In this document: in pieces, positions 1-64,000 of the stretch
Position numbering within the stretch: position 1 is the stretch's first letter
Layout: every line of letters starts with the position of its first letter
NCBI GenBank assembly: GCA_001953115.1
Contig: LSSL01000653.1
Location: 43,866-107,865, forward strand
Direction of reading: 5' to 3'
Source: Smittium mucronatum
Lineage: Eukaryota > Kickxellomycota > Harpellomycetes > Harpellales > Legeriomycetaceae
DNA length: 64,000 nucleotides
Position numbers and translations under genes: made by a program
Notes under the pieces: model-generated
Database searches by the model: none
Told to the model about the DNA's origin: nothing
Seen by the model: the letters and a program-made list of their open reading frames with translations, nothing else

Positions 1-3000
1 TAAATAACATTTTATATCGGAAAAAAGGGCTATCTACAATTACTATTCTACTTTTATCCGAATATTATTCTGTATTAATATAAAATTCCTTTTTTATATT
101 GCAATTTTACTGTAGTAAGAAAACTAGTTTTGTCTATGAAAAAATCAAAATATATTGAATTTTTTGGAAATTATATACACTAAATTCCTAAAAAAAATTT
201 ACAGTTATAGATTTAAATTTGTATTAATTAAAGTTTATACGGATTTATTTATAAAACTAATAAGTTTTCTCTAGCTCGTAGTGATAAATTACAAAATTCA
301 ATATAAAATAAAAACATTTTTATATTAATCAAATTTAACAATACAGAAATATTAGCATAGTTTATTATTGTAAAATTACATTATTTTAATAATTTTCTAA
401 AAATCTTGGGTTTGAGTTGTATTTATTTCTTACTTATTTATAAAATTTAATAAAATTGGGTTAATGATCTTAAATAAATACTAGAATTTATAATAAAAGA
501 TTTTATATTTTTTATTAATATATACATTAACAATTTATGCACAAATTTGCTGTAAAAAACAAATAAATTTTTTCAAAAGAGTAATTAGCCAAAAAATTAT
601 AGTAGAATATTTTATAAAGTTATATAGAAAAATCTTATATTCTTTATTGAGGGCAGAATTTTTCTAATATTTAAAATTAATTTTTAGAATTTATAATATA
701 ATTATAAATCGAATAATTCCCAGAAAATTGTGAAATAATCCAATATTTCGGCTAAAAAGATATTTTACAAATTAAAAAAATTTAATGCAAAATTTCTTGA
801 AATTTATCTTAATTTACTTAATTTTTTTTATTTGGTATAATAATATTAAATCTCTTAAACATGAAATATTTTTTTATTAATTTAAAATTTTAATAAAATA
901 AAGTGCACATTATCTAACTTTTTATAAAAAAAATGTATCGTGGTACCTGTATAAAACTTTCAATTAATACATAAACCAACAAAAATATGATGACTATATT
1001 TATTATTTAGCTTTACAGACTATAAATAAAAGAGGAGTAGAAAAAATATTTTTTTAAATCTCTTGAACAAGAGTTTTATAAAGGAAAATAAAGTATAAAT
1101 AGGCTAACATTTCAAAATAAAACTAAATCAGAGGGAAATTTTTTTTAAAAAGACGTTTTTCGACTTTAAATATTTATTTTTTCCAAACTTCATGGATATT
1201 ATTTATAGATTTTTGAAAATTTTAAAATTTTAATTTTTGCATCCATGAATTTTAATAAAATTTAACTACCAATTTCCCCTGCTTAATTTAGATATTTTAA
1301 ATAAATAGTTTATTTTTTATCATAAAAAAAAAATTATTCTTTTAATATTTAAAATGTACATTAAATTAGAATATTAACAAGGAGCTTTTTTGAAAAATAA
1401 TAATATTCACAACTCTGCGCTAGCCCGTACTTATTCTGAATAAATTTTGATGTAAAATTCTAAAAAATGCAATTTTGGTAATTTTCGTTCAAACATAAAT
1501 CCGATTTGGTATTTTTTTTATGATTATTTTTCTTTATTAAAAATATAGCTAATAAAGTTTTTCATATATCTATGATACCATTATTATTTATTTATTTTGA
1601 CTTAATTTTAGAATATTAAATATTAAACTCAAATCAGATTAAATTTAGTCTCAATAGTATTGATTTTCACATAAGATCATTTTTTATTAGCCCTACAAGA
1701 TTTTTTATTTAATTAAGCAAATGATTGATAAAATAATTATTTATAATGAATTACTTTAAATATATACAAAAAAATACTTTGAAAAATTCCGATGAATAAA
1801 TTTTATAGCCAGTATTCGAACCCATTTTCTTGAAAGTTTTTTTTCCAAAAATGATGATGAAAAAAAGACTTTAATTAAAATTTTCAATTCTAGTTTTCAA
1901 ATTATTCAATCTCCAAATCAACTATAACTTCTAAATGAGCCTTCCTTAAATGGTAATTGTCTATTATATTTTCAATAAATATCTATTTGTATATCTATAT
2001 ATAATTTTAAATTTAAGATTTTTTAAAATAAAATTGATGGAGCAAGAAATATAAATATAAAAAAAAAAATTCATTGATGAGAAATAAAAATTTATATCGT
2101 TGCAAATCATATTTCAAAAAAAAAAAAAATTAACACATCTTTTATAAATTTTTTTTTTTTTTTCTAAGATGGTTTTTGGTATACATTTATGACTATTTAT
2201 CATTTATTTATTTTTATACGCTCTCTGATAATATTTTATAGTTATATTCATTTCAAACTTATTTTATTTCATAAAAAAAATCTTATTTTAAATATTCCTT
2301 CACAAATATATGTTAAAAATATATTAATCTATCCTGAGTTAAATCGCTGAATATAATATTATAAAAATAAATACATCAGATTCTTTATCTTACATTATAT
2401 TATATTACTTTTTATTTTATGTTATTCTATTTTTTTTCATAATAGTGAAAAATATTATTGAAAATATGCAAGAGCTAAATTTAAATCCATCGGAACCTTT
2501 AATATGTGAAGATGCTACGTCAAATTATAATATAATATTTAATATTTATATCAAATAGTATCTAATTTTTTTTTTTAATATAGCGAAAGCTTAATGTTGT
2601 TTTTGATTGGTGAAGAGTAAAATTGGGCCAAATCATGTTTTCAAAAACAAAAAATTAACTTTTGTGCAAAGTTAATATAAAAAATAAATTTAGAGAAATT
2701 TAAATCAAATTATCCCAAAAAAAATCCAAAAAAAGACAATAATTTGCAGGAAAAATTTAAATAATATTAAATAATAAAATAAATAAATAAAAAATTTTCA
2801 TAGGAGAATTTTTTTTCTAAACTTTTGTTCCATTGAATTACTACAATATTTGTACTTTTAAACCGAATATAAATCTTTTGATTTTAGCTAATAATATTAT
2901 TTTAAAGGGTTTTATAGGTTTTTTTATTTCTTAAAAATAAACTAATAAGATAATTTTCTTTAATACTCAATTGTTTTTTACTCCAATTCTATAAATAAAC

Positions 3001-5280
3001 ATAAGTAAAATCATTATATCGATCCTTGTTTGGTTAAAATTTCAGTATTTGAGATAATAGACAATCAAATTAAAATTAATTTGAATATGAATACACTTTA
3101 TGTCGTTTTTTTACACAGTTTTATGATATCTTTTAACCTATTTTGCTTTACTATTTAACGAAGCGCAAAAAAAAAATTCCATTTTGCCTAATTTGAACAA
3201 TTATGTATTTCTGGATTTTAAGAACACAATTGGGTACATTTCCATATAATATGATTAGATATTTTTGTAGTATTTTTTTCAAAAACCAGTATTCAAAGCT
3301 TTCTTAATCCGAATGATTTTTAAAACGAAAATACTTTTCAATAACATTTAAAAAATTTCTGATTAGATTTTTTTATCAAGATTTGGGTGTTTCTATTGGA
3401 TTATATAATTTATATGTTTTGTGAAAATATATATATAGTTTAAATTTTAATTTATTATATTATATTTATTTCTTTTTATTACGGATATAATTGTTTTCAT
3501 TTCAAAATACAAAATATTGATAAAATTAGCTAAGATTTATATTGTTTAGATCTTAATAAATTTACAAATGTACTTGTACTCTCCACTTAAAGTTAATATG
3601 TAATAATATTCAGACAATTAATTACAATTTTGCTGTTATATTAATAAACCCTTATCTTCGGTCACATAATTACGCTTTAATTGATCTAAAATATTATCTT
3701 TTCCTCTTATCTATTAGTATTTTGGATTTTAATAAATAATCAAATTGTATAACAGTTGATAAAATTAAGAAATAAAAATTTTAATGAGAATTCAACATTT
3801 AGTAACTCTTTTTCATGATTTTTCATAAAAATTACATAAATCTTTAAGTAAAAATATTAATTTTGCCCATTGGTAAATTTTTTAAAATAATTATATATAT
3901 ATTATTAAAAAATCGTCAGATTCGTAATAATAACATTATATCTTACAAATATTTGATTTAGTAAAAAGTTTAATCCTAATTTTCATTTTTTTACTCTGGA
4001 AAACATAATATGAAAGTTAAATGATTATAATTCATTTGCAATTAGAAGCTAGATTTTGTGTTTAATTCAAATTGAGCTTTGAAATATAATATATACGTAT
4101 TTAAGGAAAATAATTATCGGCAATAGTTACACGAAGGAGTATAGATTAGTTTCCACGAAAAACATTGGTAGAAATTTAAAACATTATAAACTTCAAAAAT
4201 AAATGAATGAGCGGATTTTCGAAATATTTGAATTTAAATCATTAATCATGTGTCAAAATTAAATCCGTTTATATGATTAAAATCTTTTTAGTAATTTAAA
4301 ATCCATAAATTCTTGCCGCCATTAATGAAATATTTTTTCTGTACATTTTTTTTCTCAGTATGAGGTTTGAATTGGTAAAATCAAGTTAAAATTACTATAT
4401 AAGGGAAAAAATAATTATTTTTGGTAATTTTATAATATATATTTTCATTGAATTATTGTAAATTTTCAATATAAATTTTTTTTTTTTATTAAAAATATGG
4501 GTTTTGAATAAAACATTACATGATGAGCTTCTTTGATTAGCCTATTTTTTTTTAATATTCACGGTGAGGATACTTTTTTTCATTATTATTTTACGCTTTC
4601 ACTTTTTTATCTTAGAATTAGGTAAATAAATTTTCATCAAAACAAAAATTCTGAGTCTTTGAGCTGTAAATATATAACAGTAAATTTATAAGTCTTGTAA
4701 AAGAAAAAATATGGTTATTTAAAATTAACATCATGTTAACGTGACACTCTAATTAGATATAAATAATAGCCTAAATATTTTGAAATCTGGTTAAAATCGG
4801 ACAATTGTAAGTTTATTAGGAAACCCATATTTTCACCCTCAAAAATCTTATATTACTTGGTTTATGCTTTAATTTATCAAAAATAATTTTTTTGTAACTA
4901 TAAAGAAAGAAAATAATAATTTTAAAACCATCTTATTACACTGGAACTTTGTTATTATTGAATCTTCAAGCTTAACTTTGATATTTTTACTAATAATAAG
5001 TAACATTTTATTAATAAATTCAATAATATTACCTCTTTTATACTAAAAATATCTACATTTTGTGGTAAGGTTGAATCTCTCAAAGAATTTTTAGTACTGG
5101 TGTTAAATTTTTCGATCTCAAGGTACCATTTAATCAAGTATCAGGGTTTATTTTTTTACAAGTTGATATAATTTCATCTATTTCTGTAAACTCTTACCGC
5201 TTTTTTAACTGCAAATTTATTTTAATTTTAATATTAAGTTCTAAAAACTTTTTAAAATAATTTTAAAAAATTTAAAATAA
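1..5280. other. Gene-free AT-rich desert
   Basis: This stretch is dominated by A/T runs, with stop codons in all six frames at short intervals. The longest open frame is about 60 codons and is Leu/Ile/Lys-rich, as expected by chance at this composition. I see no tRNA or rRNA signature and no family motif. It borders the 3' end of the minus-strand retrotransposon. Confidence 0.7.
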
Positions 5281-5523
5281 TTCCAACCAACCCCTCTCTG
5301 CCTTTCTAGCATCTCCATACCTCTAGGGCATTGTTTCAAGGGGGCTGATGAATCACTTAAACTCTGGAGCTTAAGTGTTCGTGGCACGCAGATGCCAATT
5401 AGAAATTTGATTTTTCCATCACAAATTTATTAATAAAGATGTCAGCTTATAGCTTACTTAAAGTATTTTTAGAACCCCCCCCCCAGAAGCTTTCCAACTA
5501 TCCGCAACCGGGATTAGCGGAAA

Positions 5524-5760
5524 TTAAAAAGTTAATTTTTTTATTTCTGGGCTTATCGGTGCAGGTATGAACCGGAATATCGTCTCATTTCGCTGTTTGT
5601 CCCATTGAGTTAAATTTAATAAGATGTGGTCGACAGTTTCAGGCACATTGATTTTGCAGAAGGGACAATATTTTTTAAATTTTTCATCTAAATTTTTCAT
5701 ATTTGATAGTCGCTGGAAGGTCAGGAAGGTCCCCATTCACATTTTCTCGATTTCCTGGAA
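5524..5760 (-). pseudogene. LINE C-terminal zinc-knuckle region (zf-RVT type)
   Basis: A 70-codon open frame reads YCPFCKINVPETVDHILLN followed by a W and a downstream Arg. This is the CxxC...ETxDHxLLxC...W pattern found just behind the reverse transcriptase in many fungal and plant LINEs. The third metal ligand, usually Cys after DHxLL, is Asn-Leu here, a likely decay mutation. It is collinear with the RT remnant upstream on the same strand. It is a fragment, not a free gene. Confidence 0.75.
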
Positions 5761-7460
5761 GCCAAGTTTCAGGTCAGGGTACAGCAGCTGAACATTCATC
5801 CAGTATCCTTTTCCACTGACTTTTCGGTCCACCGTCCACTGGTGGATTTTAGACCGGTTATTTTTATTTTTCCTGTTGACTATGGTGATATTTTTTTAGC
5901 CTTTTGAGTTTTAAACACAAAATCTTTTTATACATCTTGCACTGCCGATCGTCCAGGTGGCCAACCGAGCCTTGATTGGGGCCTTGATGATGTCGGCTAT
6001 CCAAGTTTTTAAAATTGGCCATTTGTGATATTCTCGCTCTCGAGCAGTGCTGGTTTTTAAGAGGGCAGATTTTATCCCCAGTTCGGTTCAGGACAGTTCC
6101 ATGGCTGCAAAATTACCCACATTGGCAACCAATCGGTTGACTTTTTTGATTTTTGCTTTTATCTGTTTGACTCTGACCTCGCTCAAGCTAAAGTCTCTCG
6201 TCGGTAACAGCCAATAGGCACCATAGCCGAATTTATGAATTATATTTTTAGGCTTATAGGCACTTCGCTACGTTTCAAGAAACTATTCGCAGCATAGAAC
6301 GCCTTTCTAAAAAAAAATTAGTTATTTTCGATGGTCCCATAAACGTCCCATTTATTGTTCATTATGTACCAAAAAAAAGATATATTTATCAGTATTTGGA
6401 TTTTTTTTGTCATTTTAATATCAGATCGGACGTTCGGGGACAGGTGACATTCATTAGGCTGCACCTGTATACATTTTCAGTCATCTCCCATTTATTCTGC
6501 CAATTTTAATTTGATCTAATTCCAATAGCACATCTATATCTGATTCAGCCAATATAATGGCATTATCGGCAAAGAACATCCCAGATGTCTTATAAGTTAT
6601 TCCAGAGACATATAAACCCTGAATATCCTCAAAAATATTATTTATATAAAAATCGAAAAAATCTAGTGAGGCTGGCGAAGCTAGGTAGCCTTGTAGAATC
6701 TTACACGGGTATTCAGTAAGTTTGGAGACATCATCTCCAATTATAACAGATATTTTCTAGGCGCTTTGCAGGCCAAAGATAGCATTTATTAATTTCCCTC
6801 CGATCCTGATAGCATTCATTTTTTACAGTAGTGAGTTGTGGAGCACTCAGACATATGCTTTTCTATTTTTTATTTTTCTTCGACGGGAAATTCCTTATAT
6901 TGTGGTCGTTTGAGTGGCGCACTCTTCGGAATTTCAAAATCCAAATTGTTCTATTACTAATTATTTTTTACTTTTTATCGATTCGTGCCAATTTGTCATA
7001 TAATATTTTATAATAATATCTTTGAAAGAGTTGTAATAAGTTAAATTCCCAGATAGCTATTTGGATACTTCATATCATCCTTTTTATGTACCGCTACTAA
7101 AATACTAGTATTAACACTTTTTGGTATTTCCCCCGAATATTGCATTAAATTGATAATTTTGAAAATAATTTTTTTCATTTTTGACTCCGGAATATTTTCA
7201 GAATTCACCTAATTCCATACCTCGTTGGTTATACTGTCAGAATGAGATGCCTTTTTATTGCGCTTATTAGATAGCGCTATGGTAATATCAATACATCTGG
7301 TATTATAGCCCCACTCTGGAAAGTAGTCACAGTATGTATATATCAGTGATTCAAACTTTTTTATATTGCAACTATTGCCATAGTATCATTTTCCAATTCT
7401 CCAAAATAGCTATTCCAAATTTTTAGCTTTTTATTTTTTCAGTTAATTATTATTTTTTTC
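5760..7460 (-). pseudogene. LINE reverse transcriptase remnant
   Basis: Minus-strand translation, switching frames several times, yields the RT signature blocks in order. Near 7.1 kb is a GEIPKSVNTSILVAVHKKD block (the GxIPxxWxxSxIVPIxKKGD pattern). At about 6.95 kb is EQFGF with a following EECATQ. At about 6.68 kb is KILQGYLASPASLDFFDFYI, the QGxxxSPxLF block. At about 6.57 kb is GMFFADNAIILAES, the catalytic FADD box with the second Asp changed to Asn. Further down, near 5.95-6.2 kb, is a conserved-looking post-RT segment with ARER, WPILKTWI and ARCIKRFC. Multiple stops and frameshifts show it is non-functional. Confidence 0.8.
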
Positions 7461-8640
7461 GTAAAATTGACCGACCAAGATGCTCCTGAGCGTGTTTCAA
7501 GTGTACGGTTTGATGGCTCTAAAGTAGTTTCTGGATTCATCAGTTATTGTTTATCTATATAGTAATTTCATTTCTTATAATAATGAAATTTGTGATCAGC
7601 TTTTACTTGTTAATTGAATTCTATTTGGAAATTTTTAAATCATATTTATCGATTTTTCTAGGTCTTAAATTACGGAATTCATCCACACTATTTTTGACGG
7701 AAATAATTCATCTTTTGGAAAGTAGTTTAGACTAGAGCTCAGTAGCAGCATTATTTGCTTGAATCTGCTTCGATACTTTCCATAAATCGTCATTAAGGTT
7801 TTTAGAAGTCTATTTAGATCGATATAAGCATCAATTAATGGGCTAGATCTTTTACTATTAGTTAATTGTTCGACGGCCAATAGAATTCGATTCGAGTTAA
7901 TTTTTATTTTTTTGGATGGTATTATGAATGAATCGTAATTCCACTCTTCAGTAATCGGCATATGGTTGAATTTTTCGATTTATTTGTTGGTGGTACACCA
8001 GCTTTCTCTTCTTCTGAGTCCAATGTATAATATATGGTCGATCATGCGATCGATTTTGGATTTTTTATATCTAGAGTCTGGGTAATTCGTTACTTCGACT
8101 TGTTGATTGGTCTACCCAAGTCTAGATATAAAACTATTTTCCCTTGGAACGTTCATATTGAAGTCTTCTAGTATTATATTTTTTTTAATTTTTAATTTTT
8201 CCATTTGTTAAACCCAAAAATTTTATCTTTGAATTTTGCGAGCATAATACCACCGCTTGATATGTGCACATTGGTTATAAGAATATTAATCATATTTTCA
8301 TTAGAGTATTTCCCACTTATAATCCCATATATCCATGTTTGAGAAGCCTTATATTCATTTATCAATAGTCCTGATTTGTTCATAGTAGCTAATAGTAGCC
8401 CGGATCCACCCTTTGATAAGTTCCTTTTGACTCTATACATAAGTACTCAGGTATTCTTTATCTTTATTTTTTTTGTTCAAAAAGGTTTCCTGGAGTGTCA
8501 GAATATCTGGCTGGGCTGAGTTGAGGTAGTGCTTAAGCTTTTCCGGAATTTTTTATACCTCTGAAATTAAATAATATAATCCTGAGCTTATTATTAAGCC
8601 CATAATTTGGGGCTTTGAGTTTTGATCTTGATTCATTTTT
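7460..8640 (-). pseudogene. LINE apurinic-like endonuclease remnant and linker
   Basis: Minus-strand pieces match the exonuclease-endonuclease-phosphatase fold used by LINEs. Near 8.58 kb is LFNFRGIKNS. After a frameshift comes QPDILTLQETFLN, the PDIxxLQET metal-ligand block containing the catalytic Glu. An 82-codon frame (8192-8440) has GGSGLLLA and ITNVHISSG. Near 8.15 kb is ILEDFNMN, the GDFN block with Gly changed to Glu. Near 8.03 kb is IDRMIDHILY, the IDxIL block. A further 98-codon frame at 7665-7961 fits the poorly conserved linker before the RT. The frames are interrupted, so this is a dead copy. Confidence 0.75.
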
Positions 8641-25171: not shown

Positions 25172-28100
25172 ATGGTTAAAGCATATCAGAGGTACGAAGC
25201 CGAAAAAAATTTCGGTGTCATATGCAGTCCCTCTAGCAATTCAGTTTATTCTCTCGATGGAAAATATGCCATTTCACCCGCACTTCAAGATGTTATGGTT
25301 TGGGACTTGAAAAAAGGTCAGCTTTATGAAAGGTGGTCAGATTTCGACAACAACAGCCATGTCACTTGCATTACCCGTTCACCTAGTGAGGATTCATATG
25401 CTATTGGTTATTCCGATGGCTCCATTCGCCTATTTGATTTCGAAAACCCTTCTCCCTCGTGTATATTCAATGGCCATAAAGGTGCCATCACTGCCCTAAC
25501 TTTTGACCCAACCGGAACAGTACTATGTTCCGGAAGCAGAGACACTGACCTAGTTTTATGGGACATTATAGCCGAAACTGGTTTATATAGACTTAAAGGC
25601 CATAAAGATCAAATCACCGGTATAATATTCGTTAACGACCAGCAAAATGCTGTTTCACCTGAAAAGAGTGATTCCGTTGTGGATGTAGGCAGTACTATGG
25701 ATTCTTATACCTCCCAGTCTACTGAAACAAAAGATGCTTTTACTGCTGGTGAAAAAGGGTTCCTGATCACCAGTAGTAAAGATACTCTTGTTAAAGTTTG
25801 GGATTTAGAATATAGACATTGCGTTCAGACCATCGTTAGTCATAAAAGTGAAGTGTGGTCTATTGCCATTAGTCCTGATCACAAAACTCTCATAACAGGA
25901 AGTTCTGAATCTAATCTTAAAGTATTCAAATTAAATTTACAGGACTCCCCAGATCCCAGCGTACCTCTCCCCAGTTCCGGAACGTCTTTATCTGAAAACT
26001 CTTACAATAACTCTGCAACATATTCTGAAAATTTACTTGAAAACTTAGTTAAAAAGGGAAATAAGGAAATTCTAGTAGAACTTGGTTTCATTAGTAAACA
26101 GAGCAAAGAACGTGTCACAATGCTGCAGTTTCACCCCGCCGGGATATTGCTGGGCTGCCAAACCAATGACAGAATGGTCGAGTTTTTCACCATCTCTACG
26201 CCAGAAGAAATAAAAAAGAAATCCGCTAGAAAAATCAAGAGAATCCGCGAGAAAAAATCATCTGAACCCTCTACTATTGATGATCCTTCTGTTTTTGAGC
26301 TATCAACTCAAGACTTGTTAAATTTGGAGTATCTTCCAAGGCAGGTTCTGAGATTAGTTGCTAAATCTCGCAGCTTTATGTTCAATCCCACTGAAAGTTC
26401 TTTGCTTATAGTCAATAGACAAAAAAACACTAAAATTATGTTTGCGCTTGTAAATAATTCATTAAGTGTAGCGTCTTTACCAATCATCAGCAGCTTAAAG
26501 ACATCTGATTCTGATTCGAAAAAGTTGCTTGAACCCCAATGGATACATTCTATAGAAAGATTAGGACATCGAAGTGAACCTCGATGCATTTCTTTATCCT
26601 CTGATAATGAGCTAATAGCCACAGCCTGTTCTTCAAACATTCTTGTTTGGAACTCGATTACTAAAGCTTGTATACGTACTTTAGAGTGCTCCCAACCTTT
26701 AACTGTAGTATTCTTACCTGGTGATCAACATTTAGCTGTTGGAACAAAAAGCGGAACAATTGAATTGTTCGATTTAGCTGCTGCCGGACCACCGATTGCC
26801 ACGTATGAGGCTCATGAGGGTGGTGTTTATTGTATTGCAGTGACTCCAGACAAATCAGGGATCGTGTCTGGGGGTGGTGATAAGGAATCTAAATTTTGGG
26901 ACTTTGAAATGATCTCTGCGGCTCTCGCCAACAACGATGATACTAACACTCCTTCTCTCCAAGTAGGCAAGACTTTATCGCTTGTCCACACACGAACATT
27001 GAAGTTGCCCGATGTAGTTTTGTCAGTCGTGGTATCACCAAATCTTAAATTTGTAGCTTACTCGTTGCTTGATACGACCATAAAAGTGTTTTTTTATGAT
27101 TCATTAAAATTCTCCCTATCATTATATGGGCATAAATTACCAGCATTATCGATAGATATTTCTTCTGATAGCACATTGTTGGTATCGGGATCAGCCGACA
27201 AGAACGTGAAAATATGGGGCTTAGATTTTGGTGATTGCCACAAGTCCATTTACGCACACAAGGATGCAATCACATCAGTAAAGTTTGTATGGGATACCCA
27301 TTACTTCTTTTCAGCGGGGAAAGATGGAGCGGTGACAATGTGGGATGCCGATAAGTTCGTGAAGATCCAGTCATTGGCGGATGGAGGTTTCAGTGGAGGG
27401 GATATCTGGGGGCTTGCGGTGGCCAAGTACGGAAACTTTATAGCCGCAGTATCGCAAGACCGATCGATACGGATATGGAACAAGACTGAAGAGCCATTGT
27501 TTTTGGAGGAAGAGAGGGAAAATGAACTCGAGAAATTCCATGAACAGTCGATGGTGGCTGATGCCAACAAGAACATTTCTGGATTCGAAGAATCTGAAGT
27601 CGCACCAGATAGTAATGTGCTTGTGCATTCAACAAGGGGTGACCAGGAAAATGAGGAGAACGATGATGCCGTGGCTCAAGTATCAGGGGTTAAGGTGACA
27701 TTGGAGAACATGAAGGCAGGGGAGAAGATAATTGAAGCTATCAAAGTTGTTGAACTCGAATTGCAAAAGCGAGATGCTTACGATGAAGCACTGGCTAAAT
27801 CCCAAACAAACTCAATGTACCCGAGACCAACAATTCCACCACCCAATGTTTTGCTTAAGGCTATGAATATATCGGTGGCCGAAGTGTACTTACTAAAAGT
27901 AATAGAGAAGATTCGACCAAACTACCTAGAAGACGCCCTGTTGACGCTGCCTCTTAATTCATTCCCGGTTATGCTGCGGTGTATAACATTATGGGTTGAA
28001 CATAATTATAACCTGGGATTGTCAGCAAGGATTATAACATATATGATGCGGTACAACTTTGAACAACTGCAGAATATGAGGTCTCTAGAACCTCAGATTA

Positions 28101-28297
28101 TAGAGTTGCGAAACAAACTGAGAGGATTAATTGTAGGACTGAAGAGACAAGTCGGTGTGAATGTAAGCAATTTGAAAGCGGTGGCCAAATTATGGGAACA
28201 GAATGCAACAAACGAATTGTTTGATGAAGAATCCATTAAAGCAGTGCTAGAAGCGAATATTAAGAAACGCAGATTCGTAGGACTAGCCACAAAATAG
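25172..28297 (+). CDS. UTP12: UTP12/DIP2 (WDR3) U3 snoRNP WD40 protein
   Basis: UTP12 is part of the UTP-B complex of the small-subunit processome and acts in 18S rRNA maturation in the nucleolus. The gene is intronless and encodes 1041 aa. I chose the ATG at 25172 (MVKAYQRYEAEKNFGVI), which matches the conserved DIP2/WDR3 N-terminus; the frame stays open 15 codons further upstream but without an ATG. Two sets of WD repeats are visible, for example VMVWDLKKG, LVLWDIIAETGLY, LVKVWDLEYRHCV, NVKIWGLDFGDC, AVTMWDADKFVKI and SIRIWNKTEEP. The C-terminal Utp12 domain spans about residues 898-1010 (LEDALLTLPLNSFPVMLRCI). Family members are about 940 aa; the extra length lies in acidic/Ser loops in the first propeller and between repeats. 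Confidence 0.95.
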   Translation: MVKAYQRYEAEKNFGVICSPSSNSVYSLDGKYAISPALQDVMVWDLKKGQLYERWSDFDNNSHVTCITRSPSEDSYAIGYSDGSIRLFDFENPSPSCIFNGHKGAITALTFDPTGTVLCSGSRDTDLVLWDIIAETGLYRLKGHKDQITGIIFVNDQQNAVSPEKSDSVVDVGSTMDSYTSQSTETKDAFTAGEKGFLITSSKDTLVKVWDLEYRHCVQTIVSHKSEVWSIAISPDHKTLITGSSESNLKVFKLNLQDSPDPSVPLPSSGTSLSENSYNNSATYSENLLENLVKKGNKEILVELGFISKQSKERVTMLQFHPAGILLGCQTNDRMVEFFTISTPEEIKKKSARKIKRIREKKSSEPSTIDDPSVFELSTQDLLNLEYLPRQVLRLVAKSRSFMFNPTESSLLIVNRQKNTKIMFALVNNSLSVASLPIISSLKTSDSDSKKLLEPQWIHSIERLGHRSEPRCISLSSDNELIATACSSNILVWNSITKACIRTLECSQPLTVVFLPGDQHLAVGTKSGTIELFDLAAAGPPIATYEAHEGGVYCIAVTPDKSGIVSGGGDKESKFWDFEMISAALANNDDTNTPSLQVGKTLSLVHTRTLKLPDVVLSVVVSPNLKFVAYSLLDTTIKVFFYDSLKFSLSLYGHKLPALSIDISSDSTLLVSGSADKNVKIWGLDFGDCHKSIYAHKDAITSVKFVWDTHYFFSAGKDGAVTMWDADKFVKIQSLADGGFSGGDIWGLAVAKYGNFIAAVSQDRSIRIWNKTEEPLFLEEERENELEKFHEQSMVADANKNISGFEESEVAPDSNVLVHSTRGDQENEENDDAVAQVSGVKVTLENMKAGEKIIEAIKVVELELQKRDAYDEALAKSQTNSMYPRPTIPPPNVLLKAMNISVAEVYLLKVIEKIRPNYLEDALLTLPLNSFPVMLRCITLWVEHNYNLGLSARIITYMMRYNFEQLQNMRSLEPQIIELRNKLRGLIVGLKRQVGVNVSNLKAVAKLWEQNATNELFDEESIKAVLEANIKKRRFVGLATK

Positions 28298-48571: not shown

Positions 48572-49049
48572 TAAATATTTTTTAAATATAGATGCACTTT
48601 TTTTTGAATCGAATATATCTATGATGTAAATAAACCTTTCAAACCATCATCCTGTTAGGCAGATATTAATTTTCAAAAATTATAAAACACCTCTTCTAAA
48701 GATTCTCATGTTAATTTAATTTCATTAGACTTCTTTTTTTCTGTAAAATATTTTAAATCACTTGTTGTGGATATAAAAACGGAAACCAAAAATATTGATT
48801 ACATATATCGCCATTTAAAAATTTTAAAATTATCTTAAGTTCTACATTTGCTGTTTTTTCATATGATTTTGCATGAAATTGGATTTTTATGTCTTTGAAA
48901 GTTTAGAACGTAATAATGATTAATTAAAAGGTTCTTATATGAAAACTGATATCATTATAATTTTTCGTTAATTTTTACACATTTCTTAAATCTTCTGAAG
49001 ATTATATTTACATATTAATTCACTTTAACAAACACTTTAACACAAAAAA

Positions 49050-49164
49050 ATACAAACATACAAACATAACACACAAACATAAAAACATAAAAACATGAAA
49101 ACATACAAACATGCAAACATACAAACATACAAACATAAAAACATACAAACACACACACATATAT
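49050..49164 (+). repeat. Minisatellite of 8-bp unit (ACAAACAT)n
   Basis: About thirteen imperfect copies of ACAAACAT, with AAAAACAT variants, run head to tail and dissolve into an ACACAC/ATATAT tail. C is almost confined to the plus strand, giving clear strand asymmetry. Confidence 0.9.
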
Positions 49165-54125: not shown

Positions 54126-56693
54126 ATGGATTATCCAGCAAGGAATTCGGAATGCGCCTGTGAGGATTGTCTGAGATATATTGAAGCTAGAATGATAAGG
54201 TGTTCATTAATCCATTCATTCTCCGATATTACTGATATTTATGAAAGCGATATCAGTCATAAAAAAGATTCTAATCTTCAAAATGGCTTAGATAGGTGTA
54301 ATGATGGTACATATATATATAATTCAGACATCAGTTTAAGTGTACAAGAAGGTTTGGATATAGGCTCTTCTATTGTAGACGGTTCTCATATAATACGGGA
54401 ATGGAGTTCAGATGAATTTACTGATAGTGGAAGCCAAGTTCAACGAAATGTATTGATCTCTAGAACCTCTAACATATCAAATACATACATAGACACAGAT
54501 ACAAGTGATATTACAGATGAGGATGATTCTTTATTGGAAAATGACTTTTTCAAAAAAGTATACTACGGCGCGACGGCGAATAAAGCATTTGGAATAATAT
54601 CTAACCAAATAATTAGCAAGAAAAACAGAAGAAAAATGTTTAAAAGCACTATAAATGAAGCCATTGTTTATGGAATTAATCTTTATCATCAGGGTACCAA
54701 ATCGAAACAACATTCTGAAGATGATAATAACAGTAAAATATCGCAGAATATGAATGATTCTCAAGAACGTAAACATTCCCAGAATTTTTTTAAAAATAGT
54801 TCAATACAAGAATATGGGGCTAACAAAAAAACAGATGTAGAAATGGGAAATAGAAATAAAAAAAATGAAATGTTTTTACCTAGATTAGATGAAAATTCTA
54901 TCCCAGAAGAGGTTTATAATTTAAACGCCAAAGATGAAATTAATACTGGAAAATTAAATGTCGTAAATATAGTCAGTGATGAAGAAAACAAAAAAGAAAA
55001 AAACTGTAAAATTCATAATTTAGAATTTGATTTATCACTAGATGGAACAATGGAGCTGGATATTTCTGAAAATTGTAGTTACAGCATATCTGAATATCCA
55101 TATTGTCGAAAAGATGAAGTTAATAAGGCGAGAATATACAGAAATTTTGTGGAATCGGATAGCGAATTTTTCAAAAACATAATTCCAATAGATGGTCACA
55201 GAAAAAACAATATTCCCCCAAAGGAAGTCAAAAATTATTTTTGTAGAATACTAAAGAACGAAATTTGTCAAATAGAAGATGTTTCAGAAATAAATGCTGC
55301 GATGTTTCACGATAAAACTTCTTTAATAGATAAGAAAATTTTATACCATAAAAAGAAGTTTTTTAGAAAGGGAATTAATGATATCGATGGATTCTTTGCA
55401 CCTTACGAATCAAATAAAGAAAAATTCGATGAAGATAGAGATCTTAAGTTTAAAACAGCTCATTCTAAATGGGTAAAAACAAGATTGTTTTTAAACACTG
55501 CCCCTATGCATAATAAGAGTGAAAGCCTAATTGATAATGATATATATTCATTTACCAACGATTATTATATCGACCTCATGGCTGCTATACACAACAAGGT
55601 TCTAACCTGTTGCTGTAGTGAGTGCTGTGAGAAAAATTATATTTATAATGTATTATCTCGCGACAAACCGATATTATTCACCGAATATAACCAACCGGAA
55701 AAGATAAATATAAAGGATTTCGAAAAAAACTGGGGAAAAAGTGAAATTAGAACATCTGTTTCAGAATTGGGAGCACTATACAGATTAATTAAGAAGGATC
55801 GTGATTTATATATAATCCACAAGAAAGAAAATGAAAAAAAATTTGAAAAAATTAGCTTAATAACAAACATCGTTGATGCTCCATTAAAATTTAGAATTAT
55901 AAAATATGTTGCTAAATTGGGGGACGCAACAATATCTAAAAATGGGATTGGTGAAAAAAGAATTTTAACAGTAAAAAGAAAATTTGGAAAAGACGTGTAC
56001 ACAGAGAAAGATAATTTTGTTTCTGATGGAGATTTTTTTAGACATCTGCACAAAACCCCTGAGATAGTTCCATATTTCGTTAGCGGGGGGATGAATATCG
56101 ACATGGATCTGTTGAAGGAATTCAGAAATCAGTTATCTAAAGTATTATCTAGAGATATCATAGGTTCAGATGAATTTGGATTTCTATTCCCGCAAAAAAT
56201 AGATAAAAGCTTGGTTGAAATTTCTTTTGGATATTCTAAATCTGAGGTGATTAATGAAACTGAAATATCAAGTTTATTTTTCACAGTGAATGGAAACCAT
56301 CTAAATGCTAAAAATGTTACGAGGTTTGCAGTTTTTGCATCGAGAACGAGAATAGATGTCGAGAAATATGACTACTTTGACCAGATATCGAGAATCGACT
56401 TCAAATTAAGCTCTAATACAGATAATTGGTTTAAATTGGGAGTGATGCCTTTGATGTATGTCGATTTTAATGAGAAAAACAGTTATCGAGCTCTATCACT
56501 ATTCAAAGAAGGAGTAAGATGCAGATATTTGTACTTGAAGGTTCTTGAAGTAGGAAAGTTTTTCCAGACCAAAATTTTACTCTCTAAAGCCAGCAGCGTT
56601 AATTCTACGGAAATCGTCTTCAGTAACAACGATTCAGACTACGCAAGATTGCCAGATATGATCGTTTCTGGAAATATGATAAATATAATATAG
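54126..56693 (+). CDS. Orphan protein, 855 aa, paralog of the 59192-62788 protein
   Basis: This is an intact intronless frame with an ATG start and TAG stop; I do not recognise the family. Residues 1-~330 are hydrophilic and rich in Ser/Asn/Asp/Lys, except for a Cys cluster at the very start (C10, C12, C15). Residues ~339-855 are homologous to residues ~607-1198 of the minus-strand gene at 59192. Matching blocks include RNFVESDSEFFKNIIPI, a Cys-rich spot CCCSECC (495-501), FGKDVY...SDG (620-635), IIGSDEFGFLFP (678-689) and a final VRCRYLYLKVLEVG (798-810). There is no signal peptide and no transmembrane helix. The last ~170 residues alternate hydrophobic and polar like a beta-sandwich; a galactose-binding-like fold is only a guess. 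It is convergent with its paralog, with an LTR-like repeat between them. Confidence 0.8.
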   Translation: MDYPARNSECACEDCLRYIEARMIRCSLIHSFSDITDIYESDISHKKDSNLQNGLDRCNDGTYIYNSDISLSVQEGLDIGSSIVDGSHIIREWSSDEFTDSGSQVQRNVLISRTSNISNTYIDTDTSDITDEDDSLLENDFFKKVYYGATANKAFGIISNQIISKKNRRKMFKSTINEAIVYGINLYHQGTKSKQHSEDDNNSKISQNMNDSQERKHSQNFFKNSSIQEYGANKKTDVEMGNRNKKNEMFLPRLDENSIPEEVYNLNAKDEINTGKLNVVNIVSDEENKKEKNCKIHNLEFDLSLDGTMELDISENCSYSISEYPYCRKDEVNKARIYRNFVESDSEFFKNIIPIDGHRKNNIPPKEVKNYFCRILKNEICQIEDVSEINAAMFHDKTSLIDKKILYHKKKFFRKGINDIDGFFAPYESNKEKFDEDRDLKFKTAHSKWVKTRLFLNTAPMHNKSESLIDNDIYSFTNDYYIDLMAAIHNKVLTCCCSECCEKNYIYNVLSRDKPILFTEYNQPEKINIKDFEKNWGKSEIRTSVSELGALYRLIKKDRDLYIIHKKENEKKFEKISLITNIVDAPLKFRIIKYVAKLGDATISKNGIGEKRILTVKRKFGKDVYTEKDNFVSDGDFFRHLHKTPEIVPYFVSGGMNIDMDLLKEFRNQLSKVLSRDIIGSDEFGFLFPQKIDKSLVEISFGYSKSEVINETEISSLFFTVNGNHLNAKNVTRFAVFASRTRIDVEKYDYFDQISRIDFKLSSNTDNWFKLGVMPLMYVDFNEKNSYRALSLFKEGVRCRYLYLKVLEVGKFFQTKILLSKASSVNSTEIVFSNNDSDYARLPDMIVSGNMINII

Positions 56694-57990
56694 TTTAAAA
56701 ATAATTTTTAAGAGGTTCTAACTAAATTATAAATTAGGATTTTTTTCCATAATTGATTATTATGCGAAAGAAGCAATTTTCTACTATTTAAATAATATAA
56801 TCATTAAATTAGTTTAACTTTAAAAGAAAACTATTCATTAAAAAAAATAAAATACTTAAAACCAAAAATTTCAAAATATTCCACATAAAAAAAATTAATA
56901 TAAATAATTTGGGCTGTTTCAATAATATAAATGTTAATATCAAATAAAATCTTATTATATTCAAATGAGAGACCAAATAAAAGTGTAGAAAGAGACATAT
57001 ATAGAGAAGAGATTTCCATTATGCCATTGAAATCAATGTCGTATTTTCTTTAAGGATTTACTCGAAAATAGCACCAAAAACGATAATAGAGTTATGGAAA
57101 GATATAAAAATAGGGATAAATTTAATAATAATACCTAAAAAGCCTAAATACAAAAAAGCTTATTCCTTGTTAAAATATATTAATAAACCTTTCCTGATTT
57201 GTACAAATAAATTAAACGTGCATATGAACCAAGAAAAACATAAAATCTCTCAAGTAATAACCAGTGATATATTGAAATAATTTTGGAGAATAATTATCCC
57301 TAAGATTTTCACTAGCAATGACTGATGTTGATGTTATAGCTTTTCCCATTATTTTGTCTTAGCAATAATAAAAACTTTGATTTTTAATTGAAATTTATTT
57401 CTATCATAAGTCAACAGACAATGGCACTAAATAAATCTCAAATACTTTAAAAGAAGTACAGCCCGCACAGTAGAAACCATGGGTCCCAGAAAAACTAAGT
57501 CGAAAAAAATTTCTAAAAATATTACGTTAAATTCGTCAATATTTTAAAAAAAATAATTGTTAAATGCATTGATGGGATAAATTTTATATTATTATATAAT
57601 CATTTCTTCCAAAAGATAATAATATTAATTTTTCGATCGTTTTTCATAATAAATTGTATAAAAATAGATAATTTTCGTAGCTATTCAAAATTTTATGATA
57701 TTCAACTAATTAACACTATTATTAAATTATTTTAATTTTATTATGAATAAATCCAAAAGCTATTCTCAAGTATAGCTTAGCATTGAATCTTTTAATTTTC
57801 TTTATATTATAAAAAATCTATTCAACAAAAAGTGAATGTATTTGAATGAAAAAGAATTTGAAAACATTAATTTCCATTTAGAAAATATTCTGACCATGTT
57901 GAGAATGATTTTAGTACAACATACCCCCTTACTTCTTTCTTGCATATATTTTTCAGATATGTAAGGTTTAAATCTCAAACTTGAACTTTA
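56694..57990. other. AT-rich 3' flank of the 54126 gene
   Basis: No gene is supported. The only longer frame (56831-57019, minus) is short and hydrophobic and has no motif. Confidence 0.5.
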
Positions 57991-58646
57991 TAACACCTTA
58001 ATTAGGAGAAATGGGTTAAAATTCTTTCTAAACCCAAAATGCGAAACGTATAGTCATGGTTTAGGAGCTTAAGTGATGCTTCTAAAGAGATATATTTATA
58101 TAAAGTATAACAGAGTGCTGATATACTTTAGATATGAAATGGTTATCAATCCTTAAAAATTCAGTGATAAAAGATTTAAGAATAAGAACAACATAACACT
58201 CGAGGAGCTGAAGCAAAATCTGTGCAGTCTAATAAACAACCCGTAAGAAAAGTTCATACCAGCCAGCAAATCCATCCTCCAGAGTTTAGCAGATTGCTTA
58301 TGAAAGCCTTATCAGAGATATCGACTTTTTTTAAAGCCATTACACAATTTACTAATCCTTTTAGTAGTAGGCACTAACAAAATGCTCAATAATCTCATTA
58401 AATTATTCTCACTGGTGTGAAGCTTTTAATTCTTGACTCCATTTTATCTAAGCTATAAAAATCCAGAATAAATACTATGGGATGGTTTTTCTTGTTAGAT
58501 TTTACCCCCTTCTCGTAAATATCAGCAATTTAGCAATTAGAGGAGCTTATTGTATTTAAGGTAGTGGTATTTTAATACAAATTTTACTTTTTGAACATTT
58601 TAAAATAGATTTTAATGAAGCTACTAAACAATGAAATCCTGTGATA
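57991..58646 (+). repeat. LTR-like repeat, copy 3 (decayed)
   Basis: It is about 656 bp, against 659 for copy 2, and in the same orientation. Shared landmarks in order are TAACACCTTA, CATGGTTTAGGAGCTTAAGTG, ATTATTCTCA...AGCTTTTAATTCTTGACT, TTGTTAGATT, AGAGGAGCTTATTGTA and AATGAAATCCTGTGATA. The interior is strongly AT-shifted relative to copy 2. It lies between the two convergent paralogs. Confidence 0.65.
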
Positions 58647-59191
58647 ATAAATAAAAGTAATTTGTTCAAAATATTTTGAAAGCTAGAAAAAATATAAAAA
58701 AGCACATTAAAAGAAAAAATCACAGATTATTATCCTATTTCCATCTACCGCTCAATTTTTTCTGTACCAATTGCAGTTTTTTGTAGAAAAATAGAAAAAC
58801 TACATGTAAGTCATAATAAAAAAATCAATGAGCAGTATTTCGATTCCTATGATCAAGAAATACTTAATGATAAATTTAAAAAAATGTAGTTTTTTTATAA
58901 TTGGAAGGATGGGCTTTTAATAACGTAGTTTAAATCAAAAAGATCATTTAATTACTAAAAATTTCTTTAAAAAAAATTCGATCTAATTATTCAAAATAAA
59001 AAAATAGACATGGTAGGTTTTGAAAAAATGGTGATAAATTAACATAACTTTAAATTATCCAGAAGCAATACTTTATAGATAGTTATTAAGTATGATAAGA
59101 GGGAAAATGTCATAATAAAATTTCCAGGGGGGTTTCAAAAATAATTTAATTCAATAAATTAAATTTATTTAAGATGAATCTATTTTTTAAA
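58647..59191. other. AT-rich spacer 3' of the 59192-62788 gene
   Basis: No open frame, RNA gene or terminator-like element can be supported here. Confidence 0.5.
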
Positions 59192-62100
59192 TTATAAAAA
59201 CTTTAAATACGATTTATATTCTCCACATATGTATACCTGAGGAAGTTTTAAAAATCCTTTACAAGTATTGTGAACTACAATCTCTGGCTCCCTAGCATTC
59301 AATGATTTCTTATGAAAGTCATTGGACCCAGATAAAGATTCCGAACCAATAATTATGAAATATATATATTTACATGTTATTCCTTTCCCGAAACATAGAA
59401 AGCTATTAAAAAGATTATTTTGGCCTAATTCTACAAATGCCGAGGGAGCAAATCTCGGATAATCTCCGACAAGTAAATCATTTTCCATATTTTTTTTCAT
59501 TTTCAAAAACTCGCTTTCACTCATCCATCGATATTCGTCAAATCTACATTTTGGGATTTTTTCTATAGAAATAAACACCAAAATTTTTGTACAATGCCTA
59601 GAATATAAATATCTTGCATTTAAGCTAATAAAAATCCATTTTACTGTCCCTAGGGAAGATTTTGACTTTTTTTGATCGTATATTTCTAGTTCTAAAATAT
59701 CTCTTCTTCCTAGTTTCGGGAAATTGAAATTCAATTGGTCGTTTCCGCGAATCCCCCTACCAAATTCACGAGTTAACACATCGCTAAAGTTTTGAATATA
59801 CTTATTTTCTACTGTACCTCCATTACCAACCCTAAAATCTATTAAGTTATGGTCTTTTTTGAAATTATTGATAATGCAACCATCCGAAAAACGATTAGCA
59901 TTAGGTATGTACAATTCTCTACCAAAAAGATTAGGAGATGAAAGCAAACATTCAATTTTGGTGAACTTTATACTTTCGAAACTGTAGTTATAGAAGTCTT
60001 CATTTTTATAAATTCCAAAATGGGGAATATTTTGATTCTCTTTGCTGTTTCTTTTAATTTCGGAATGTTCCCACAATGTTTTAATCATCTGTGCTTTTTT
60101 TTCTTTAATAAACTCTAAGGGCTGGTATTTTGAATGGTCAAAATATACTATTAATCTATCTTCGGTTTTTTTTTTGTAAATTTTGTTTTTTATTTTAAAA
60201 CCACTGGAATTTTCACGGGGCGATAATTTGATCACATCATTTTCTCTCCCAGTTATAATTATTTCCATTGTATCATTCTCTCTGTTTCTGATTATTTCAT
60301 TTGACTCATTAGAAAATTTCCCAGATTTTCGAACAGAATTTCCTGGGATAATAAAGTTTTCATCAAATCTATTAGTTTTTGAGGTTTTATTATAGTTTAT
60401 TTTATTATAGAGAGAACTTTCATAAGATTCTAAATAAGGTTCAAACTCATTTATTCGACATTGGCAAACATATTTAGAAGTTTGAATCATCTTTCTAGCG
60501 TGTATACGAGCTCTATTAGTTAATACTATATCATCATTAGTTTCACATCCCTGGCAGAAAGATAAATCATAATTTTCTTTATTTTTATTTTTACACAAAT
60601 ATAATTCATATCCGAATCCGAATTTCGTTTTCCAAAAGACAAAAGCTTTATTAATATGTTCTAATTTATCAATTTCTTCTGCAATTTTTTTAGAATTTAG
60701 ATTAGATAGGATCTCAGAATAAAAAACACCATTTTTATTTCCTTCGCCCAAAAACTTATTTCCGGTGATAATTTTTTTGTACTCAGAGATTTTTTCCATT
60801 GAAATTTTGTTTTTTAGCTGATATTTTTTCTCGCTAAAATATTTCTTGATTGCATCTATGTGATGGGTTCTTTCCTTTTCTTCAGTGTTAGAAATATCTT
60901 CAAAATCAAATAAATCCACAAAAAGAAATGGTATTTTCGAAATTAGGTCATCTCCACGAATAAAATCCCTATGTAATACACATTTGGGATCTATTAACTT
61001 GTCATAATCAATTGTTTTTGATCTTTTTTCTTCATCATAGTCATATCGCCATATTGGCTGAATATAATCTTGATTTTTATTTTTTGAAAATTTGTCGATG
61101 CGATTTTCGTAAGATAAACTTCTGTTTGAACTTAATCTCTTGATATTAGACTCCGTCCCATTAGCAATGTTTGAGTTAAGAATAATATCACTTTTCCCAA
61201 CTTTTAAATCCTTTGGTTCGGTACATCCATTTATCAAAATCTTTTCATCGTCGCAATAATCATTGGGCTTAAAATTGATTATTGGATTGATTTTTAATTT
61301 TTTAATTTCTTTGGGGTCATTGCTATTTCGTTCTAATGATTTCGGGTTGGAATTTATTTCAACATTTAATTTTGTTTTTAATCCTTTATTTGATGAAACT
61401 CTTTGCGAAAGAGCTATATCAATAAATTTTATTATATTTTCTGTGCTATAAGCGAGATGATTTTGTTTATTTGCACCATTCAAAGGCATACCACCTCCAC
61501 TCAAACTAATCTCATCGCTGTTTATTTGTAAAGACATGCCATCGGTGTTAGAAGCTCCCTCACTAGTCATCTTGGTGACATTCGAAATTTTTTCGTTCAA
61601 ATAATCTATAGGTTTTATTTGTCTTACCTCATTTTTTGTAAGATCAAATCTCACTTTATGCTCAGAAAGACCGCTGTTCAGAATTTCAGAATTTAGTTTT
61701 TTTTCTTTTTTGAAAAAGTTAGAGTTTTTTTCCTTGTTTAAGTGTTCAAATTCGGATATGACATCACTCGATAAAGGAATTATTAATTTTTCTTTACAGC
61801 TTGTCTTTAATGCAGATTTTAAGGCAGGCCTGGTGTTATAAATGAATTCAATATTTTCATCCTTGAGATTTGATATTGGAGCTTTTAATATTGATTGGTT
61901 GCAAAAATAATTTTTATATAAATTCAATGATGAGGACATCTTATCCGCTTTAAAAGACTGTTTTTCTACGCCATATTTCGCCTCACCTTCATTTCCTAAG
62001 GGATGTTTCGAACTTAAGACGATGAATTCCATTTTTTTATCAAATTCGTTGGTAAAAACTTCAGTTTCTTCACCTATTTTATTATTATAAGAACCATGAA

Positions 62101-62788
62101 ATTTTGAAAGCTCACCGTTATGTGAATTTGAATCAACTATGTTACATTCAAAATTCGAATCATTTTCAATAATTTCAATGTTCTCATTTTCAATTTTTTT
62201 GTAATATATATTTTTCATTGAGCTATTTTCATTAAGATGAACCACTTTATATATTTTGAATCCACATAGTTTATTATTTGGAGTAGGCTTTACATCATCA
62301 CTATTTATTATGGATACCTCATTACAAGAATAGCTTCTAACTACTATTTTTTCACCCAATTTAGACAAACTTACAATCCGATTTGAACCGAATTCAGCTA
62401 CACGATATTCGATCAAATCTTCTAGGTTTTGAGTGGAACACGTAGCGGGATTTTCCAGAAAATACTTATCTGCTTCCATTCTAAATTGGTAATTATTTGG
62501 GTGAAGATTTGATATTTTTTTCCCGTGATAATCACCTGATACGATTTCTGACCTATACCCTGAAATATTTTCTTTATTGATATTTTTATATATTGGTAAA
62601 AGTCTCTTTAGAGTTGGTTTTTTTGGATGTTTTGATACTTCTTTGTTATCGATGTTAACAAAAAAAGACTTAAATCCAGTCATATTAAATTTAATTAGTC
62701 TTTTTATGGATTTCCAAGCGAAATATTTTGGTTTTAGCTTAGTATTATCTGCTCTGTAAACTGAGAATTTTTCAATGGAGATGATCAT
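59192..62788 (-). CDS. Orphan protein, 1198 aa, paralog of the 54126-56693 protein
   Basis: This is an intact intronless frame with its ATG at 62788; I do not recognise the family. Residues 1-~600 are hydrophilic (Lys/Asn/Ser/Glu) and share no clear similarity with the paralog. Residues ~607-1198 do. Blocks are HRDFIRGDDLISKIPFLF (606-623), a Cys group (C732, C745, C748, C775, C777) near the paralog's CCCSECC, YFDHSK (882-887), LFGRELYIPNANRFSDG, GIRGNDQLNFNFP (1012-1024) against IIGSDEFGFLFP, and GITCKYIYFIIIG (1136-1148) against GVRCRYLYLKVLEVG. The Cys group could bind zinc. No signal peptide or membrane helix is evident. The upstream 1 kb is plain AT-rich DNA followed by a hexamer satellite. 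Confidence 0.8.
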   Translation of the reverse strand: MIISIEKFSVYRADNTKLKPKYFAWKSIKRLIKFNMTGFKSFFVNIDNKEVSKHPKKPTLKRLLPIYKNINKENISGYRSEIVSGDYHGKKISNLHPNNYQFRMEADKYFLENPATCSTQNLEDLIEYRVAEFGSNRIVSLSKLGEKIVVRSYSCNEVSIINSDDVKPTPNNKLCGFKIYKVVHLNENSSMKNIYYKKIENENIEIIENDSNFECNIVDSNSHNGELSKFHGSYNNKIGEETEVFTNEFDKKMEFIVLSSKHPLGNEGEAKYGVEKQSFKADKMSSSLNLYKNYFCNQSILKAPISNLKDENIEFIYNTRPALKSALKTSCKEKLIIPLSSDVISEFEHLNKEKNSNFFKKEKKLNSEILNSGLSEHKVRFDLTKNEVRQIKPIDYLNEKISNVTKMTSEGASNTDGMSLQINSDEISLSGGGMPLNGANKQNHLAYSTENIIKFIDIALSQRVSSNKGLKTKLNVEINSNPKSLERNSNDPKEIKKLKINPIINFKPNDYCDDEKILINGCTEPKDLKVGKSDIILNSNIANGTESNIKRLSSNRSLSYENRIDKFSKNKNQDYIQPIWRYDYDEEKRSKTIDYDKLIDPKCVLHRDFIRGDDLISKIPFLFVDLFDFEDISNTEEKERTHHIDAIKKYFSEKKYQLKNKISMEKISEYKKIITGNKFLGEGNKNGVFYSEILSNLNSKKIAEEIDKLEHINKAFVFWKTKFGFGYELYLCKNKNKENYDLSFCQGCETNDDIVLTNRARIHARKMIQTSKYVCQCRINEFEPYLESYESSLYNKINYNKTSKTNRFDENFIIPGNSVRKSGKFSNESNEIIRNRENDTMEIIITGRENDVIKLSPRENSSGFKIKNKIYKKKTEDRLIVYFDHSKYQPLEFIKEKKAQMIKTLWEHSEIKRNSKENQNIPHFGIYKNEDFYNYSFESIKFTKIECLLSSPNLFGRELYIPNANRFSDGCIINNFKKDHNLIDFRVGNGGTVENKYIQNFSDVLTREFGRGIRGNDQLNFNFPKLGRRDILELEIYDQKKSKSSLGTVKWIFISLNARYLYSRHCTKILVFISIEKIPKCRFDEYRWMSESEFLKMKKNMENDLLVGDYPRFAPSAFVELGQNNLFNSFLCFGKGITCKYIYFIIIGSESLSGSNDFHKKSLNAREPEIVVHNTCKGFLKLPQVYICGEYKSYLKFL

Positions 62789-63845
62789 GTCTGTTACATA
62801 ATAGTTAAAAGATAACTATTTATATATTTCCATGTTGAGGACTCTTCGTTTTGAAAAATAAAAAAAACATCCTTATCCGTATAAAATATTTTGCAGAATT
62901 TGATGTGAATTTTATCCGATTTTCTCTAAAAAATATTCTCATATCTAGCTTATTCATCTCAAAAAATTTATTCCAAAGCTTGAAAATTGCTTTAAATTCG
63001 CCTTAGCGATCCTTTGGCTTAATTTCACTAGGATTCTTTCGGTAGAATAACAAATATAGTTATAATAGGTGAAAAAATCTCAAAATGATATAATGGCATT
63101 TAATTATAAATTTTTAATTATTTATTTTGGAACAAATAAAAGTCTACTACATTTCAATAATATTTTTTTTAAATAATCGATGAAGTTCATTCTTGACAAA
63201 TATAAGAAAAATCATGCCATTGTTAGTATATATATTCACAAATCCATTGCTTATCTAGAAGTTATTATAAATAAAAAATAGAGTAATTCAAATATCAAAC
63301 CTACAAAAGATTCGAATTGGGGGGAGGGGATGGGCGAGAAATAAATATATTTAAAACAATCTTGATTTTTATAAAAATCACATAGATAATATATACTTCA
63401 CTTAATATACTGAGTCTTAAAAGCAATAGATGTTTACTATTAAATTGCTGAAATGAAACATATTAGCAACATTATATATACTAGAGGCTAAGTTAAAAAA
63501 TTTTTTTTGTGAATATTTAATAAATGTATCAAAAAATAAAATAATACTAATAATAAAATAAGTATTTCAATTTTATGAACAAATTTTCAATGTGTTATTT
63601 TTATTATTTTTTTGAAATATGAATAATTTTTTGATCTAAGGGGTTTTTATTGGCAAATGCCAAGTAAATCTTTCATTTGGGAATAATTTTAAACTCGAAA
63701 TTTTCGTCCATTTTATATAATATGCGGACAAAACCCCATTCTATTTTTAATACAAAAATGAAAAAACTCGGCTCACATGATTTACTCGTGTGAAAAATTA
63801 AATTAAAATGACTATAGAAAACGAGTACATTTTACATATACATTT
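62789..63845. other. AT-rich 5' flank of the 59192-62788 gene
   Basis: It must hold the promoter of the minus-strand gene. A G-rich patch occurs near 63.32 kb. Nothing else is recognisable. Confidence 0.5.

Positions 63846-64000
<155 letters not shown>

Follow-up and report, generated by a model that had tools for sequence, protein, structure and literature searches.

Two convergent genes with related C-termini

A 64,000-nucleotide stretch of the Smittium mucronatum genome (contig LSSL01000653.1; hereafter, the window) contains two genes, P1 and P2, whose protein products are related through their C-terminal regions (Table 1). As an earlier note on this DNA had stated, the two genes converge and each is a single frame from ATG to stop. 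By base composition, about 76 stops would be expected in P1 and about 107 in P2, and both frames are uninterrupted. All four motif blocks quoted in that note are present in the two sequences. BLASTP aligns P1 613-849 with P2 948-1189 at 22% identity (E = 3e-21), and the Smith-Waterman score of the full-length proteins, 244, far exceeds the scores of 200 shuffles (mean 70, standard deviation 10.5, maximum 106). The C-terminal homology, proposed to extend over ~520-590 residues, is thus significant but confined to the last ~240 residues. Indeed, upstream of this region P1 339-612 and P2 607-947 score 56, a value equalled in 21 of 200 shuffles, and P1 1-600 and P2 1-940 score 77, equalled in 68 of 200. 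Profile alignment with HHalign, the suggested test of paralogy, is also significant, though for under half the length proposed: P2 561-1198 matches the group of P1 at E = 7.8e-20 over 240 columns and the second group of the family (class B, see below) at 2e-17 over 207 columns, whereas P2 561-960 matches neither. Shuffle tests and HHalign therefore detect no relation between the N-terminal halves of P1 and P2, in agreement with the earlier note.

Table 1. Features of the window and their coordinates.
Feature	Position in window	Strand	Description
P1 gene	54126-56693	+	855 amino acids, single ATG-to-stop frame
P1 variable N-terminus (residues about 1-575) and discoidin/DOC-like C-terminal domain (about 576-855)		+	predicted fold
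P1 residues 576-855, predicted C-terminal galactose-binding-like domain	55851-56690	+	structure model
P2 gene	59192-62788	-	1198 amino acids, single ATG-to-stop frame
P2 N-terminal ~940 amino acids without detected relation to P1, then homologous C-terminal domain		-
P2 residues 948-1189, homologous to P1 613-849	59222-59947	-	BLASTP
P1-P2 intergenic stretch	56694-59191		2,498 bp between convergent stops, 24% guanine plus cytosine (GC)
UTP12/WDR3	25172-28297		one 1057-codon open frame; protein of 1041 amino acids
Open frame antisense to P1	55643-56104	-	153 codons
(AAACATAC)n array	49046-49161		about 15 copies
(TACATA)n array	63833-64000		about 28 copies, 97% matches, right at contig end

A multi-copy family in S. 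mucronatum

In S. mucronatum, P1 and P2 form part of a multi-copy family that numbers at least 15. The genome sequence searched amounts to 73.8 Mb in 2,957 contigs and is smaller than the reported genome (102.35 Mb, 7,797 scaffolds; PMC5954228, Table 1), so that family counts are lower bounds. As queries, P1, P2, C2675, C6 and C547 gave 8, 14, 9, 13 and 10 matches, respectively, which together define at least 15 members spread over 11 contigs; C547, the final query, added none. The members, named by contig, are P1 and P2 (both on C507), C92, C1827a, C1827b, C2675, C147, C1864, C1251a, C1251b, C1251c, C6, C547, C2575 and C480. The diverged family with unrelated N-terminal halves proposed from the pair is thus larger than the pair itself could show. 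Identity to C2675, used as genome query, is 42% for C1827a, 36% for C92 and 33% for P1.

In 13 of the 15 members the protein lies in one frame of 824-1198 amino acids, further short exons upstream being possible. C1827a and C1827b each consist of an upstream frame of ~300 codons and a second of ~450 codons, separated by a short GT-AG intron (read by eye). The public protein AYI68_g5574 is the spliced C1827b and uses that one intron, and AYI68_g7822 is C2675 itself; both are annotated as hypothetical proteins. Intronlessness, which had been presented as setting P1 and P2 apart from conserved genes, holds for both frames but is a weaker point than claimed, because UTP12/WDR3 in the same window also occupies one frame and two of the 15 members have an intron.

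A tree built from the last 250 residues (15 rows, 14 of them different) gives two groups: class A, comprising P1, C92, C2675, C1827a/b and the long-branched P2, and class B, comprising the other nine. P1 pairs with C92, and the tree does not join P1 and P2 as sisters; the tree tool warned that the position of the long P2 is uncertain and that the letter composition of C480 is odd. An additional mid-region, roughly 350-400 residues long, is common to the class B members (BLASTP alignments of 604 columns for C1864-C547 and 632 for C1251a-C6). Five member pairs lie within 33 kb of each other (P1-P2, C1827a-b and three pairs in C1251), a number never reached when 15 genes were placed at random on 73.8 Mb 100,000 times (contig breaks ignored). 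Moreover, C1827a/b and C1251a/b are local sister pairs, which argues for local duplication.

Judged by their divergence, the local duplications are old. Over the last 240 codons, non-synonymous (dN) and synonymous (dS) divergence is 0.29 and 1.43 for C1827a/b and 0.91 and 1.32 for P1 and P2, respectively; other distant pairs have dS of 1.8-5.0 over all codons, the last 240 codons being not computable for three pairs. In the dN/dS check that had been called for, dN is lower than dS in every computable pair, except over the last 240 codons of C547/C2575, which are identical. For the first half of these two genes, values of dN 0.66 and dS 1.07 hint that the N-terminal half may be under weak constraint. 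The suggested mode of evolution, birth and death, is supported on the side of birth by the local clusters and sister pairs; against death, none of the stretches matched by the five genome queries in the 15 members contains an internal stop.

Two members call for caution in counting. The last ~2.9 kb of C547 and C2575 are identical but for one 6-base gap; the identical stretch begins inside the family gene and reaches both contig ends, and the upstream coding sequence is mostly about 42-70% identical per 100 columns. Gene conversion was considered and rejected, since the identity runs to the end of both contigs. A shared assembly end, probably an assembly-graph duplicate, explains the pair, and no conversion was counted. 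As one of the two may be an assembly duplicate, their C-termini count as one observation; one alignment held one of them (13 of the 14 members then known) and two others kept both. A further member, C480, stands out in composition: its gene has 44% GC, and the fetched 7.5 kb (1-7500) 38%, compared with 19-32% in the other fetched stretches and 26% in the window. C480 may lie in a GC-rich pocket or come from a contaminating harpellid relative, and in the latter case the family exists outside S. mucronatum.

Genomic setting

The surroundings of P1 and P2 fit the earlier description only in part. An AT-rich desert is present at 36-52 kb (15-21% GC per 2 kb), but P1 and P2 themselves have about 24-29% GC. 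Tandem arrays are few (10 rows in window 30000-64000). Dead relatives nearby are not supported for this family: tblastn with 14 members as queries (E <= 0.01) detected no further fragment of the P1/P2 family in the window, including the stretch between the two stops. Coverage of the UTP12/WDR3 frame in alignments with relatives reaches 100%, and the public S. mucronatum protein is 100% identical but shorter (913 amino acids; 87% of the query covered). The 153-codon frame antisense to P1 is most likely a chance frame.

Predicted fold of the C-terminal domain

By sequence, the family is unrecognised, as had been claimed: the members scanned have no Pfam match above cut-off, and a PDB sequence search gave no match. 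The fold predicted for it, by contrast, is already known. The model of P1 576-855 (predicted local distance difference test, pLDDT, 77; predicted template modelling score, pTM, 0.83) shows a jelly-roll beta-sandwich with the topology of the galactose-binding-like (discoidin/DOC) superfamily, and its best Foldseek match is 3ggl (F5/8 type C; E = 3.4e-5). Carbohydrate-binding modules (CBM32, galactose oxidase) make up many of the structural matches. In a viral structure library there was no match at E <= 0.001, the best being 1.9e-3. The C-terminal domain is accordingly predicted by modelling to be a galactose-binding-like beta-sandwich (discoidin / F5-8C / APC10-DOC fold) that carries a short helical insert, and we regard the family and this fold, taken together, as very probable.

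Several observations weigh against this assignment or against what might be read from it. None of the 14 aligned members (C1251b and C1827a/b being represented there without their N-terminal part) matches PF00754 (F5_F8_type_C) or PF03256 (ANAPC10) at E <= 1, and neither do C480, full-length C1251b or spliced C1827b, so that no scanned member matches the Pfam model of either named family. In structure comparison, the scores for SUN and CBM32 domains are as good as those for APC10, the evidence from class B is weak on its own, and the fold alone does not choose among protein, sugar and lipid ligands. Finally, a search of the protein collection with P1 586-855 yielded 1599 candidates, none at E <= 0.01, and did not return even P1 itself, which suggests that P1 is not annotated there at comparable length.

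Other searches define how far the family can be followed. Genome-wide, PF00754 identifies one place, C1942, which is not among the 15 members; PF03256 finds none, with the controls silent too, so this search says nothing. Searches of the protein collection require shared 5-residue words. C2675 560-824 has two matches there at E <= 1, both from S. mucronatum and one of them the query itself. The same search missed the same-genome paralogs C1827a, C92 and P1, which either lie beyond its reach or are absent from the collection as proteins, and its silence on other species therefore says little for or against the lineage specificity proposed earlier. The proteins of close relatives are in the collection, since UTP12, used as a control query, had its next-best matches in Furculomyces boomerangus, S. 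culicis, S. simulii and S. megazygosporum. Viral contigs gave 196 pattern matches and prokaryote contigs 96, none of them confirmed (the query alignment held five of the 14 members then known). We found no paper joining Smittium with discoidin in a literature search that left most subscription journals outside, and neither 'discoidin' nor 'galactose-binding' occurs in the main text of PMC5954228.

Comparison with proteins of related fold underlines how distinct the family is. It differs from APC10/Doc1 and the other proteins with a DOC domain (HECTD3, CUL7/9) in having no PF03256 match in the members scanned, in its long variable N-terminus and in its multi-copy state. APC10 ends in an Ile-Arg tail, whereas none of the 15 C-termini ends in IR. 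Muskelin, a component of the GID/CTLH E3 complex, carries its discoidin domain at the N-terminus; in the S. mucronatum family the domain is C-terminal, with a helical insert, and neither Kelch nor LisH is among the Pfam matches at E <= 1. The family resembles F5/8 type C proteins (CBM32, chitobiase C-terminal domain, PF00754) in its best Foldseek match, but the scanned members have no PF00754 match and a crude scan shows no signal peptide.

N-terminal region and cellular location

FoldIndex values in 60-residue blocks, obtained for 14 members (all except C480), are mostly near or below zero in the N-terminal region and above zero in the C-terminal one, with C147 as an exception and P2 mixed. 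A crude hydropathy scan, in which C1827a/b were entered without their first exon, found no signal peptide-like start among the 15 members, and 14 of them have no 19-residue window above 1.6. The exception is C480, with one such window (1.98 at residue 438, the start of its match to C547); in C6, a stretch close to the start is mildly hydrophobic (1.57). The hydropathy scan fits an intracellular protein, and we infer from this crude evidence that the family proteins most likely stay inside the cell. A cysteine cluster, CCCSEC, lies at P1 residues about 495-500, upstream of the C-terminal domain, and is also present in C92; it is a possible metal site.

Proposed role and alternatives

Discoidin domains bind lipids, galactose or collagen elsewhere (PMC9180843). 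The HECTD3 DOC domain is reported to be sufficient for CRAF association and APC10 is described as recognising degrons (both PMC5489699), and the discoidin domain of muskelin is discussed as a possible substrate recruiter (PMC9180843). Intracellular DOC/discoidin folds can thus bind proteins, which favours an adaptor or recognition role. By analogy with the HECTD3 DOC domain, the partner of the C-terminal domain would be a protein or peptide. The N-terminus, in most members long, low in hydropathy, probably disordered and fast-diverging, would supply a second, member-specific contact; class B members add their mid-region. The family would then consist of adaptor or recognition proteins whose binding head is conserved and whose arm differs from member to member. 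We assign this explanation as a whole (family, fold, intracellular location and partner-binding adaptors) a probability of about 0.4; the adaptor role itself, argued by analogy, is tentative and somewhat doubtful.

The proteins might instead be structural analogues of SUN or CBM domains with an unrelated role, for example in the nuclear envelope or as scaffolds. This is unlikely, and the crude scan, which finds no membrane-like helix in 14 of the 15 members, speaks against it. The abundance of CBM32 and galactose oxidase among the structural matches would also suit secreted or surface lectins or adhesins, in which the discoidin-like domain binds a glycan of the host gut or fungal wall and the N-terminus forms a stalk; insect-commensal fungi are reported in PMC5954228 to rely mostly on adhesion anchors. 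The crude scan, with no signal peptide-like start and, in 14 of 15 members, no window above 1.6, argues against such proteins, which we consider a rather poor prospect. Retroposition, or carriage as cargo of a mobile element, could account for a mostly intronless family (the whole matched protein lies in one frame in 13 of 15 members) spread over 11 contigs. Yet the members scanned have no Pfam match to a transposon domain, an intron is present in two members and the copies are old (dS from 1.1 to saturation). Furthermore, an all-against-all comparison of 14 stretches (P1/P2 window and C480 locus excluded; >100 bp, E <= 1e-10, fetch overlaps excluded) found shared DNA outside the genes only as matches of 197 and 277 bp and as the C547/C2575 tail with its internal repeats, which makes this origin quite improbable. 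Spurious or decaying frames without function, which very fast divergence and the failure of the P1 search to return P1 might suggest, are scarcely credible given matched stretches free of stops in all 15 members, residues conserved across the whole family, dN below dS in the computable pairs and two publicly annotated members.

Implications

What looked like an orphan family is thus probably a divergent branch of a binding fold already known, which offers a testable handle on the function of at least 15 genes in a fungus that lives obligately in insect guts and illustrates that a multi-copy family can escape sequence-only annotation. A bolder and improbable extension of the adaptor reading is that this harpellid gut fungus maintains a private repertoire of DOC/discoidin-headed recognition proteins, each combining the one conserved binding fold with a hypervariable disordered arm, which would act as interchangeable substrate receptors or recognition modules and diversify like an immune or self/non-self repertoire. 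If the domains are indeed receptors, the family would represent a natural case of repertoire building on an APC10/discoidin scaffold.
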